Source: Caulobacter sp. Root1455 (lineage in GTDB: Bacteria; Pseudomonadota; Alphaproteobacteria; Caulobacterales; Caulobacteraceae). From it: 64,000 bases of DNA. Where the stretch lies: NCBI RefSeq assembly GCF_001426905.1, contig NZ_LMFQ01000023.1:1-64000 (forward strand), given 5' to 3'. The notes under the pieces are model-generated. The model had not been told where the DNA came from, ran no database searches, and saw only the letters and a list, made by a program, of their open reading frames with translations. Positions 1,566 to 59,782 of the stretch are shown here, one piece after another (within the stretch, counting starts at the first letter, position 1; each line of letters begins with the position of its first letter). A program made the position numbers and the translations under genes.

Positions 1566-2372
1566 CTAGACCCGCAGATCGGCCGTGACCGGCGCGTGGT
1601 CGCTCGGCCGCTCCCACTCCCGCACCGTGTCGTGGACCTTGGACGAGACCTTGCCGTCGACGATCGCCGCGTCGCGCAGGCCGGGGCTGGCCAGGATGTG
1701 GTCCAGGCGCAGGCCGCGGTTGGACTTGCGGAAGTCGGCGGCGCGGTAGCTCCACCAGCTGAACAGCTTTTCCGGCTCGGGCGTGGCCAGGCGCGGCAGG
1801 TCCAGGAGATCCATCGACTTGATCATCGCGTCGAAGGCTTCGAGCTCGGCCGGCGTGTGGCTGACAACCTTCAACATCTGGCGGTGACTCCAGACATCGT
1901 TCTCGCCGGGCGCGATGTTGAGGTCGCCGGTGACGATCAGCGGCGCCTTGGGATCGCGCTTCTTCAGGGCGGCGGTCAGGGTCTCGTAGAAGTCGAGCTT
2001 GTGGTCGAACTTCGGATTGCCGACGCGATCGGGCGTGTCGCCACCCGCCGGGATGTAGAAGTTCTGGATGTCGACGCCGGCCACCTTGACCGCGACGCAG
2101 CGGGCATGGCCCTCGCGGCAGTTCATCAGCGTCGGCACGTCCTCGAACGGCAGGCGCGAGGCGATGGCCACGCCGTGCCAGCCCTTCTGACCGGCGATCT
2201 TCAGGTGCGGCAGGCCCATGGCCTCGAAGGCCTCGCGGGGGAACTCCCCCTCCTGGCACTTGATCTCCTGCATGCACAGCACGTCGGGGGCCTGCTCGTC
2301 GACGAAACGGGCGGCCTGCTCGGCGCGCAGGCGGACGGAATTGACGTTCCAGGTGGCGATACGGAGGCGCAT
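1566..2372 (-). CDS. xthA: Exodeoxyribonuclease III
   Basis: A 268-residue AP endonuclease and 3'-5' exonuclease of base-excision repair, of the exonuclease-endonuclease-phosphatase fold. Expected motifs are present in order: IATWNVNS at the N-terminus, MQEIKCQE carrying the metal-binding Glu, an IPAGG segment with the active-site Tyr (NFYIP), VTGDLNIAP with the catalytic Asp and Asn, LRLDHIL, and the terminal SDHAPV His-Asp pair. Length is normal for the family. The ATG at 2372 begins MRLRIATWNV, the usual start. The 78-aa gene follows directly. Upstream are an inverted repeat and a candidate sRNA terminator, so xthA is likely transcribed from its own promoter near 2380-2430. Confidence 0.97.
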   Translation of the reverse strand: MRLRIATWNVNSVRLRAEQAARFVDEQAPDVLCMQEIKCQEGEFPREAFEAMGLPHLKIAGQKGWHGVAIASRLPFEDVPTLMNCREGHARCVAVKVAGVDIQNFYIPAGGDTPDRVGNPKFDHKLDFYETLTAALKKRDPKAPLIVTGDLNIAPGENDVWSHRQMLKVVSHTPAELEAFDAMIKSMDLLDLPRLATPEPEKLFSWWSYRAADFRKSNRGLRLDHILASPGLRDAAIVDGKVSSKVHDTVREWERPSDHAPVTADLRV

Positions 2373-2510: not shown

Positions 2511-2560
2511 GGACGGTCCCTGGACGCTGATTGCTCATCGTCTGGGCTTGCGGACGGACC

Positions 2561-2596
2561 AAAACGAAAAACGCCCAGACGCTGAGCGCCTGGGCG
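2561..2596 (-). terminator. Intrinsic terminator of the candidate sRNA
   Basis: The hairpin CGCCCAG-A-CGCT-GA-GCG-C-CTGGGCG (2572-2596) is followed, reading the minus strand, by five T and then CGTTTT. This is a classical Rho-independent terminator. It is too far from lolA (over 180 bp past its stop) to be an ordinary terminator for that gene. Confidence 0.75.
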
Positions 2597-2676
2597 AAAG
2601 TCGGGTCTCTCATGCCGCCGCCGGGAGGGGATAGGTCCGGCACGGTTGCGAAGAGCGGGTCGGGCGCTCCTCGCCA
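2561..2676 (-). ncRNA. Candidate small RNA between lolA and xthA
   Basis: On the minus strand a TTGACT (2708-2713) and a GATTTA (2684-2689), 18 bp apart, resemble a sigma-70 promoter. About 110 nt downstream is a strong intrinsic terminator: CGCCCAG/CTGGGCG arms (2572-2578, 2590-2596) with an inner CGCT/AGCG stem, followed on the minus strand by TTTTTCGTTTT. The span between them has no credible ORF and contains a C-rich stretch (CCCCTCCC), a feature of many alphaproteobacterial regulatory RNAs that pair with ribosome binding sites. The 5' end is estimated from the promoter position. It does not carry the conserved core of SRP RNA. I cannot name it. Confidence 0.5.
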
Positions 2677-2683
2677 TGCGTGT

Positions 2684-2713
2684 TAAATCTGCCACGGCTG
2701 GAATCTAAGTCAA
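2684..2713 (-). promoter_or_regulatory. Sigma-70-like promoter for the candidate sRNA
   Basis: Minus strand: TTGACT (2708-2713), 18-bp spacer, GATTTA (2684-2689). The -35 is good, the -10 moderate. It lies in an AT-rich patch and points away from lolA toward the terminator at 2561-2596. Confidence 0.4.
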
Positions 2714-2784
2714 GAACAATCGCGTTAACACCTTGCATGTTGTGAAATTGTCGCATTTTGGCGTGTCAAACGGCCTTAATGCAA

Positions 2785-3438
2785 CTAGGGCTTGCCGACT
2801 CTGCGCCTCGGATCGCTTAGGACGAAGAGCTTCGGATCCAGGCCCGAGGTCTTTTCGAAGTCGACCAGGCGCACGCGGGTTTCGCCGCCCTTCACGTCGG
2901 TGACGGTCCAGCCGATCAGGCTCGGCTCGCTGCTGAAGTCCAGGGCGATGCGGCCCAGGGTCTGGCGCCGGGCGTCGACGGCGGTGATCGTGAAGCCGTC
3001 CGACAGCTTGCGCACGCCGGTGATGGTCACGCCGCGGTCCAGCCGCACCTCCCGCGCCAGCAGCAGGGCCAGGGGCGTGCGGCTGAGCGGATAGCTTTCG
3101 AAGGTCTTCAGCCGGGGGTCGAAGAGGTTGACGTTGTTGCCGTTGCTGACGACCAGCAGGCCGGCCGGGCCGTCATAGGCGAAGCGGGCCTTGCCGGGGC
3201 GCTGCAGGTAGAAGTCGCCCTGGGTCTGGCCGCCTCGGGCGTCGGTCTGGATGAAGCGGCCCTTGGCCGAGCCCAGCGTCTGGATATAGGCCGTGGCCTT
3301 GTCGACCAGGGCCTTTTCCTCGGCCGAGAGCACCGGCGCCGAGGGTTGGGCGGCGAGCGCGGGGCCGGCCCCGAGCCCAAGGGTGGCGGCCAGGCTCAGG
3401 CCGGCGGCGAGGATCAGACGGCGGGTCGTGTCGGTCAT
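2785..3438 (-). CDS. lolA: Outer-membrane lipoprotein carrier protein LolA
   Basis: A 217-residue periplasmic chaperone that carries lipoproteins from the LolCDE transporter to the outer membrane. Residues 1-29 form a Sec signal peptide ending ALAAQP. The mature part shows the LolA pattern: an opening helix (ALVDKATAYIQTL), GRFIQTD, QGDFYLQRPGKARF, LLVVSNGNNVNLFDPRLKTFESYPL and LARE. The ATG at 3438 follows a GGAG-like site. It lies downstream of ftsK on the same strand, an arrangement common in alphaproteobacteria, but a family-1 repeat separates the two. Confidence 0.93.
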   Translation of the reverse strand: MTDTTRRLILAAGLSLAATLGLGAGPALAAQPSAPVLSAEEKALVDKATAYIQTLGSAKGRFIQTDARGGQTQGDFYLQRPGKARFAYDGPAGLLVVSNGNNVNLFDPRLKTFESYPLSRTPLALLLAREVRLDRGVTITGVRKLSDGFTITAVDARRQTLGRIALDFSSEPSLIGWTVTDVKGGETRVRLVDFEKTSGLDPKLFVLSDPRRRVGKP

Positions 3439-3605: not shown

Positions 3606-3690
3606 CCCGTCCTTCGACAAGCTCAGGATGAGGAATTCGAACGCCAGCGCCTCGATAGCCCTCATCCTGAGCCTGTCGAAGGACGAGGGC
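3606..3690. repeat. Paired inverted repeat, family 1 (copy b)
   Basis: Arms at about 3607-3633 and 3659-3689, separated by 25 bp, in the gap between ftsK (stop at 3705) and lolA. The right arm reads GAGCCTGTCGAAGG where most copies have GAGCTTGTCGAAGG. Confidence 0.9.
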
Positions 3691-14691: not shown

Positions 14692-14777
14692 CCTCGTCCT
14701 TCGACAAGCTCAGGATGAGGTTTTTCTGTCGCTCGGCCTGTCAAAGGTCCTCATCCTGAGCCTGTCGAAGGACGAGG
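14692..14777. repeat. Paired inverted repeat, family 1 (copy c)
   Basis: Arms at 14692-14720 and 14749-14777, spaced by 28 bp, between the converging DUF2237 and flavoprotein genes, where it could serve as a bidirectional terminator. Confidence 0.92.
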
Positions 14778-20681: not shown

Positions 20682-20895
20682 ACTGTCGCGATGGGCCACG
20701 AAATGACCTTAATTTCGACCCCTCGCCGCCCGGTTGGCCCACCATCTTCGACTGGTCGGCCGATCGGACATCCTGCGGTTCAGGATCCTGAACAGCCCCC
20801 CCAGCCCCCTCGATCGTGGGCCGGTCGGCCGACAGACCACCCTCTAAAGCATTGCCCGAGACCCCCGCGTGGCGCCCCTCTCCACGCGGGGTTTT
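20682..20895 (+). ncRNA. Tandem small RNA, copy 1
   Basis: There is no credible ORF, but the RNA folds well. A 5' hairpin (CGAAAT 20699-20704 / ATTTCG 20712-20717) is followed by a long stem, GTCGGCCGATCGG (20755-20767) with CCGGTCGGCCGAC (20821-20833), enclosing a C-rich loop that includes CCTGAACAGCCCCCC. An intrinsic terminator closes it at 20863-20895. Copy 2 repeats the same plan 250 bp downstream, with compensatory changes in the stem. The 5' end is approximate: a GATAAT (20670-20675) lies just upstream. From memory, Caulobacter surveys named an sRNA after gene CC3664, and gene order makes this locus a candidate for it; I could not check this. Confidence 0.7.
20863..20895 (+). terminator. 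Intrinsic terminator of sRNA copy 1
   Basis: CCCCGCGTGG (20863-20872) pairs with CCACGCGGGG (20882-20891), followed by TTTT and CGCG. The loop is C-rich (CGCCCCTCT). Confidence 0.85.
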
Positions 20896-20949: not shown

Positions 20950-21156
20950 CCGCCGCGAAACGACCTTTATCGCGCCCTTCCACCGCCGATTTGGCCCGCC
21001 ATAAGGTCAGTGTCGGCTGATCGGACGCCTCGGATCCGGACCCTGAACAGCCCCCCAGCCCCCCTGATTCGGGCTCTGGTCAGCCGACGGACTAGACATT
21101 TCCCCTCCCCCTAAGAGGCCCGCGCGGTGTCCCCTCCCCGCGCGGGCTTTTCTTTT
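20950..21156 (+). ncRNA. Tandem small RNA, copy 2
   Basis: A diverged duplicate of copy 1. Shared parts, in order: a 5' hairpin (CGCGA 20954-20958 / TCGCG 20970-20974) whose loop keeps the GACCTT of copy 1; TTGGCCCGCCA against TTGGCCCACCA; the long stem GTCGGCTGATCGG (21012-21024) with CTGGTCAGCCGAC (21076-21088); the loop motif CCTGAACAGCCCCCC; and a terminator at 21118-21156. One C-G pair of the copy-1 stem is U-A here, so pairing is preserved despite change on both sides. The 5' end is estimated by alignment to copy 1. Confidence 0.7.
21118..21156 (+). terminator. Intrinsic terminator of sRNA copy 2
   Basis: GCCCGCGCGG (21118-21127) pairs with CCGCGCGGGC (21138-21147), followed by TTTTCTTTT. 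Loop TGTCCCCTCC is pyrimidine-rich as in copy 1. Confidence 0.88.
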
Positions 21157-27550: not shown

Positions 27551-27636
27551 CCTCGTCCTTCGACAAGCTCAGGATGAGGTTTTTCTAGCCTCGGACTTGT
27601 AAATGGTCCTCATCCTGAGTCTGTCGAAGGACGAGG
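27551..27636. repeat. Paired inverted repeat, family 1 (copy d)
   Basis: Arms at 27551-27579 and 27608-27636. The right arm reads GAGTCTGTCGAAGG, another single-base variant. It lies between the DUF3147-like and EamA genes, both on the minus strand. Confidence 0.9.
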
Positions 27637-32636: not shown

Positions 32637-32723
32637 CCTCGTCCTTCGACAGGCTCAGGATGAGGGCTATTGCTCACTCAGCGCCAAATTCGAACCTCAT
32701 CCTGAGCTTGTCGAAGGACGAGG
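32637..32723. repeat. Paired inverted repeat, family 1 (copy e), between accD and folC
   Basis: Arms at 32637-32665 (with GACAGGCTCAGG, a variant) and 32695-32723. It fills almost the entire 113-bp gap within an apparent operon, 11 bp from the folC start, so it would lie in the mRNA next to the folC ribosome binding region. Confidence 0.92.
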
Positions 32724-48099: not shown

Positions 48100-48185
48100 C
48101 CTCGTCCTTCGACAAGCTCAGGATGAGGACCATTTTAGAAGCTTTGCAGTAGAGAACCTCATCCTGAGCTTGTCGAAGGACGAGG
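48100..48185. repeat. Paired inverted repeat, family 1 (copy f)
   Basis: Arms at 48100-48128 and 48157-48185, essentially perfect inverse copies, between the DUF1150 and cyclophilin genes. Confidence 0.93.
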
Positions 48186-59693: not shown

Positions 59694-59782
59694 CCTCGTC
59701 CTTCGACAAGCCCGGGATGAGGAAACCAGACCGCCAGTGACGCTTCAGTAGCCCTCATCCTGAGCTTGTCGAAGGACGAGGG
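59694..59782. repeat. Paired inverted repeat, family 1 (copy g), between gltD and gltB
   Basis: Arms at 59694-59722 (variant GACAAGCCCGGG) and 59753-59781. It fills most of the 128-bp gap between gltD and gltB and ends 28 bp before the gltB start. Confidence 0.92.

Follow-up and report, generated by a model that had tools for sequence, protein, structure and literature searches.

The closest described system to the locus studied here is RusT (CCNA_R0199) of Caulobacter crescentus NA1000, a 118-nt Hfq-bound sRNA encoded between lolA (CCNA_03820) and xth (CCNA_03821) (PMC11005374). RusT folds into four stem-loops, with the seed in stem-loop 2 (nt 45-57, C53), and is contacted by Hfq just before the terminator (PMC11005374). 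It is induced by iron starvation (chelation with 2,2-dipyridyl) or excess zinc, and its promoter, which drives a reporter in C. crescentus, is occupied and repressed by NtrX, insertions in ntrX leading to constitutive expression (PMC11005374). The RNA acts in trans by base-pairing with the mRNAs of outer-membrane genes and represses TonB receptors, ompW, glnBA and others via stem-loop 2 (PMC11005374). NtrX is also reported to bind upstream of ntrYX in C. crescentus (PMC11005374); published NtrX sites read CAAN3-5TTG (Brucella) and GCAN9TGC (Rhodobacter) (PMC9223101). CCNA_R0199 has been listed as a G1 RNA (PMC5988900), and it adjoins a GANTC at 3987164 whose cleavage score goes from 2451 to 489 without MucR1/2 (PMC5172544).

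The sRNA gene of the lolA-xthA gap

We analysed a stretch of 64,000 nucleotides from Caulobacter sp. Root1455 (hereafter the window), in which an earlier note, made from the sequence alone, had proposed an sRNA in the gap between lolA and xthA. This candidate corresponds to RusT, published at the same locus in C. crescentus, a name that the earlier note did not give; an sRNA at this locus is thus already known. We conclude, with a probability of about 0.95, that the gap encodes a RusT ortholog, an sRNA that acts in trans, depends on Hfq and is transcribed from a promoter of its own to a terminator of its own (Table 1). The name xth for the downstream gene was taken from its position and from the synteny described in the RusT paper (PMC11005374). 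Homology was judged through the four strains given in the Fig. 2A legend of that paper rather than through the NA1000 sequence (PMC11005374): the loci of C. hibisci KACC 18849, C. endophyticus 774, C. radicis 695 and C. zeae 410 align with this one over promoter, core and terminator.

Table 1. Elements of the rusT locus and other features of the window (positions in the 64,000-nucleotide window).
Feature	Positions	Strand	Basis
xthA, exodeoxyribonuclease III, downstream neighbour	1566..2372	-	Pfam PF03372
RusT sRNA, 118 nt	2560..2677	-	model match, fold, length from PMC11005374
Rho-independent terminator with U-run	2561..2596	-	
Conserved core CTATCCCCTCCCGGCGGCGGCATGAGAGAC	2605..2634	-	exact in 44/52
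Stem-loop 2 with seed loop ACCUAUCCCCUC	2615..2645	-	fold and consensus structure
C-rich tract CCCCTCCC	2630-2623	-	
Seed UAUCCCCU, complement of AGGGGAUA	2626..2633	-	
Stem-loop 1, loop CCCGACC	2648..2674	-	fold
Candidate operator 2, partly symmetric block GTGGCAGATTTAACAC spanning the -10 element	2680..2695	-	
-10-like element GATTTA, weak consensus match	2684..2689	-	
GANTC (CcrM) site inside promoter spacer	2701..2705	-	
-35 element TTGACT	2708..2713	-	sequence and conservation
Candidate NtrX operator 1, conserved upstream promoter block TGCGACAATTTCACAACATGCAAG	2732..2755	-	footprint over 52 sequences
lolA, outer-membrane lipoprotein carrier, upstream neighbour	2785..3438	-	Pfam PF03548 (LolA), 114 bits
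REP-like repeat pairs	2435-2506, 3611-3682, 14698-14771, 27557-27630, 32643-32717, 48106-48179, 59700-59775		
Tandem matches to Rfam RF01530 (Caulobacter sRNA CC3664)	20755-20892, 21012-21148	+	101 and 74 bits

The C-rich tract and the terminator given in the earlier note were both confirmed on the minus strand. The terminator stem (2596-2572) has 11 pairs, 9 of them G-C, and is followed by TTTTTCGTTTT at 2571-2561; a consensus scan also reported it, among 4 terminator-like sites in 2.5 kb compared with 1.6 +/- 1.2 in shuffled sequences. Placing the 5' end at about 2677 (an inferred start, about +/-3 nt) gives the RusT length of 118 nt, and the C-rich tract then falls within the seed loop. The 118-nt RNA is unusually stable (z = -3.5, with 1 of 200 shuffles as stable), and stem-loop 1, the C-rich stem-loop 2 and the terminator are clear in the minimum-energy fold, stem-loop 3 merging with the terminator. 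Stem-loop 1 was absent from the consensus structure of all 52 homologous sequences, the set left after removal of 14 near-duplicates from 66.

In these 52 sequences, the 30-nt core is most often unchanged, ATCCCCT is present in all of them and TATCCCCTCCCGGC, the seed of stem-loop 2, whose exact numbering relative to the published seed depends on the start, in 48. For the terminator, two measures exceeded all 500 shuffles, namely the number of cells changed on both sides (48) and the score for covariation, and the share of paired cells was also above chance; the number of pairs changed on both sides (63 of 500 shuffles as high) and the number of further pair types (344 of 500) were not exceptional. 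Hairpin 2 has a nearly invariant stem, which thus carries little covariation information.

We recovered the RNA at the same place in most relatives by a search anchored on lolA, in which the LolA protein was used as query against genome contigs, independently of the RNA. In 35 of the 36 loci obtained, titled Caulobacter, Phenylobacterium or unclassified relatives, it lies between lolA and xth and on their strand (in L014 and L020 the locus ends within xth), the exception being L036. With a DNA query, 97 of 199 sampled family genomes were matched. A covariance model built from the 52 sequences, the window sequence included, matched the window at 2560-2681 (124 bits) and 158 of the 199 genomes at E <= 0.001; 20 of the 41 genomes without a match are named in the results. 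A score of at least 40 bits was reached in 121 of the 199, including all 39 genus genomes among the matches listed, each of which scores at least 68 bits. This threshold was set because plain terminators reach about 35 bits, and it loses true members: L111, L112 and L115 score 39, 33 and 33 bits, with the hairpin beside lolA or xth. Among 19 further family loci fetched, 18 have the hairpin beside lolA, xth or both. A paralog of RusT in the same genome was rejected, the second-best model match (L093, 34 bits) being an mRNA terminator, and the second match in genome G182 (L114) is a terminator instead of RusT. There was no Rfam match above the gathering threshold in the gap or at the 12 related loci tested.

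Two other kinds of elements were observed in the window. A REP-like repeat is present as seven paired inverted copies of CCTTCGACAAGCTCAGGATGAG, with up to 2 mismatches, one pair sitting between the rusT terminator and xthA. The two RF01530 matches, 119 bases apart, are apparently a duplicated sRNA gene.

Promoter, operator-like blocks and alternative readings of the gap

The TTGACT/GATTTA pair proposed as promoter in the earlier note was confirmed: both elements are present, separated by 18 nt, and TTGAC is conserved, but GATTTA is weak and not above chance alone. The promoter claim rests on conservation, since the consensus scan called no sigma-70 promoter in the gap; CTTGAC was found in 41 and TTGAC in 47 of the 52 homologous regions, and the partly symmetric -10 block GTGGCANAWWTNNCAC in 34. 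Conservation of promoter and hairpin, on which the earlier note had made its proposal depend, was thus observed in relatives. The GANTC in the spacer of this genome, set against RusT relatives, was found in 5 of 52 and dropped as a general feature; GANTC occurs anywhere in the promoter in 33 of 52. By eye, a sigma-T promoter like that of the sRNA GsrN is absent, the -35 region reading CTTGACT in place of the sigma-T consensus; identity with GsrN was rejected.

The two promoter blocks flanking the -35 element are conserved, with changes, out to Phenylobacterium-titled records. In L028, the arms of the -10 block read GTGGC-N6-GCCAC; a perfect palindrome at this locus was dropped on recount. A weight matrix made from the upstream rusT block alone was run on 25 ntrC-ntrY loci, and in 20 of them the best match, as judged by reading, was the same ntrC-ntrY site, which is conserved in the alignment. 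Scores of about -0.5 or more were obtained in 8 of the 25 ntrY loci, whereas 1 in 102 of the other window pieces and none of the 73 control pieces reached this level, with a threshold chosen afterwards and in related genomes, so that these counts amount to about one event. The top-scoring ntrY locus (L073) matches a neighbouring site and not the shared one. The motif TGTTGN7GNCACA, written down after inspection of both promoters, is present in 23 of 25 ntrY and 36 of 52 rusT regions, and 51,164 coding bases contain no copy of it. It is rare genome-wide and not enriched there (5, 5 and 3 sites versus 6, 3 and 2); the rusT and ntrY promoters are among its 5 sites in G182 and its 3 in G077, and ntrY among its 5 sites here, the upstream rusT block of the window being one mismatch off the motif. 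The rusT/ntrY block is unlike the published Brucella and Rhodobacter NtrX sites. We predict that the two partly symmetric blocks are NtrX sites, the upstream one resembling the block before ntrY, and NtrX would then act here through both of them, one covering the -10 element.

Other readings of the gap concern its two neighbours and a possible peptide. The hairpin could be only the terminator of lolA, and the RNA its 3' UTR, as suggested by the shared strand and by the many weak model matches elsewhere that are plain terminators; however, the conserved -35 element, upstream blocks and 30-nt core exceed what a terminator needs, and RusT of C. crescentus measures 118 nt and has a promoter that is active in a reporter (PMC11005374), which makes this reading very improbable. 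We give next to no credence to a leader or cis-regulator of xthA: that gene does lie downstream on the same strand, but the terminator and the repeat pair at 2435-2506 intervene, and the RNA is trans-acting in C. crescentus (PMC11005374). A small peptide could start at the ATG of the core (ATGAGAGAC), and GGCATGAGAG is found in 48 of 52 sequences; yet the sequence and length 3' of the core vary, and L024, L026, L027 and L034 lack this ATG, so that a coding function appears scarcely credible. A RusT ortholog thus remains our reading of the gap.

Predicted targets of the seed loop

The seed UAUCCCC and the sequence GGGGAUA are perfectly complementary. The earlier note linked the C-rich tract to a block of ribosome binding, which agrees with the compensatory mutations made with ompW and CCNA_00210 (PMC11005374), and also with the GGGGAUA sites that we found before start codons. 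Among 23 ompW-family loci, which come from 20 of 26 genus genomes, 15 carry such a site at most 20 bases upstream of the start, the copy of this genome among them, the start codons being picked by rule. Genome-wide, the pattern GGGGATA-N3-10-ATG has 25 matches here (24 distinct sites) and 36 in G182, versus 11 and 2 for the reversed pattern. When frames below 80 codons were left out (7 here, 10 in G182), a crude signal peptide was recognised in 9 of 17 frames here and 20 of 26 in G182, compared with 1 of 4 (and 5 shorter frames) for the control GGAGATA in G182, the test being rough, the control small and some frames doubtful. This control motif is rarer than its own reversal (9 versus 25) and is thus a weak yardstick.

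The genes ompW, glnA and amtB are preceded by the site in both this genome and G182. According to Pfam, it also precedes three TonB receptors here (L263, L269, L281) and six in G182 (L262, L280, L284, L293, L295, L297), and the frame L285, which follows a site here, has a plug domain just below the Pfam cut-off. TonB-receptor barrels have 73 matches in this genome, few of which have the exact site. The ammonium transporter gene with GGGGATA in both genomes (L315, L276) brings the nitrogen genes, with glnA, to two. An IHF/HU-type DNA-binding protein (L271, L305; assigned by Pfam on L271, L305 beginning alike) is encoded by a gene that has GGGGATA three bases before its ATG in G000 and G182 and may be a RusT target outside the envelope.

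Duplex energies beat all 200 shuffles in 3 of 23 ompW loci, that of the own ompW being unexceptional (36 of 200 shuffles as good), and were dropped as proof of targeting. We propose as testable predictions a GGGGAUA target signature at ribosome-binding sites across species, including those of glnA, amtB and TonB receptors. In this model, the UAUCCCC loop would pair with these ribosome-binding sites and block translation; by analogy with C. crescentus, iron chelation or excess zinc would raise RusT, and TonB receptors, ompW and glnBA would be repressed.

Candidate RusT-like RNAs beyond the family and comparison with known sRNAs

Across the class, the covariance model matched 42 of 385 genomes, 38 of them outside the family. 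From 20 of these 38 genomes, 21 loci were fetched: 8 lie behind lolA, and 13 (L123-L135), without lolA, look like terminators, so that the class-wide matches were not taken at face value. When hairpin 2 was searched for as a pattern with 17 fixed bases, 4 of the 385 genomes matched (reversed control, 0 of 385), and the three matches other than the window belong to other orders, each behind a lolA relative of 30-33% identity. In three such families, the hairpin was found behind lolA, on its strand, in 8 genomes (L113, L116-L122). At L113, L116, L117, L118 and L120-L122, a second, longer cytosine stretch, GCCCCCCCCGC, was observed in an upstream hairpin.

We also sampled 75 further families, with one lolA-downstream stretch each, chosen without regard to the RNA (four shortened), leaving out families in which the place of lolA was not listed or ran off the contig. 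A 12-base loop motif (at most one mismatch) was present on the lolA strand in 6 of 80 stretches, that is, the 75 plus five others, four of the six being known cases; neither the opposite strand nor the reversed motif gave a match in any of the 80. The new matches were L155, which belongs to the same order but to a different family, and L215, from the window's own family. Both were included in the alignment of a second model (R2), so that the L155 score of 48 bits is built in; the weaker matches of this model were L175, L191, L178, L199, L202, L177 and L180, at 26 to 15 bits, and 12 matches had E <= 1, some of them short or on the other strand. On the lolA strand, 9 of 75 stretches have a hairpin with a TCCCCT loop, compared with 1 of 75 on the opposite strand, and the 14 permuted loop motifs gave 0 to 3 (mean 1.4). 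When a terminator was also required, these numbers were 4, 0 and 0 to 2, in a test that is not clean, as the hairpin rule was fixed after some of these loci had been seen. L155, L173, L178, L180, L191 and L202 resemble sRNA genes in which several stem-loops follow one another, L155 and L202 failing the U-run rule, and the UCCCCU-loop hairpins of L166, L185 and L189 look like chance and are not claimed. The xth gene begins within 1 kb in 10 of the 75 stretches, two of which have such an RNA. By title, no lolA-linked sRNA other than RusT was found in the literature searched, a scope outside which most subscription papers fall.

The RNAs behind lolA in other orders could also be unrelated C-rich sRNAs or terminators that have converged, a reading that we find quite plausible without favouring it. 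C-rich loops are known in several sRNA systems (PMC5869019), the sequence outside the loop differs and the hairpin rule came after some of the loci. Against convergence, the RNAs share the side of lolA and its strand, UCCCCU loops are in excess over permuted ones (9 of 75 versus a mean of 1.4), and the hairpin reads CCGGCCTATCCCCTCCCGGC in another order versus CCGGACCTATCCCCTCCCGGC here, with no other of the 385 genomes having it away from lolA. The evidence for a class-wide RusT family is thus suggestive. We put at even odds the proposal that RusT is the only characterised member of an old lolA-linked alphaproteobacterial family, not in Rfam, with several stem-loops, a UCCCCU loop in one of them and usually a terminal terminator, which would act via AGGGGAUA ribosome-binding sites on a recognisable set of exported-protein and nitrogen genes; on the same proposal, its range would cover the Caulobacteraceae, another family of the order and several other orders, just behind lolA.

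A feature picked from raw sequence has turned out to be a real published regulator, to which we add testable predictions: its targets would be marked by a signature at their ribosome-binding sites, rusT and ntrY would have an NtrX operator in common, and other orders would have RNAs of the RusT kind. If true, the control of iron and envelope by RusT could be followed across the class. The reach past close relatives, the cross-species GGGGAUA signature and the operator prediction appear new relative to the available text of the RusT paper (PMC11005374).

Among known systems, RusT of C. crescentus and the locus described here are alike in strand, gene order (lolA-rusT-xth), length, C-rich stem-loop 2 and terminator, whereas expression, Hfq binding and NtrX control were shown in C. 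crescentus and would be expected here. GsrN of C. crescentus is similar in that a C-rich loop pairs with G-rich mRNA sites, but it differs by its 5' loop with six tandem cytosines, its activation by sigma-T and its own activation of katG (PMC5869019). In relatives, GsrN is typically near general stress genes, although not in C. crescentus (PMC5869019). ChvR and CrfA of C. crescentus are also sRNAs affecting the expression of TonB receptors, but their regulators and signals are different (PMC11005374).
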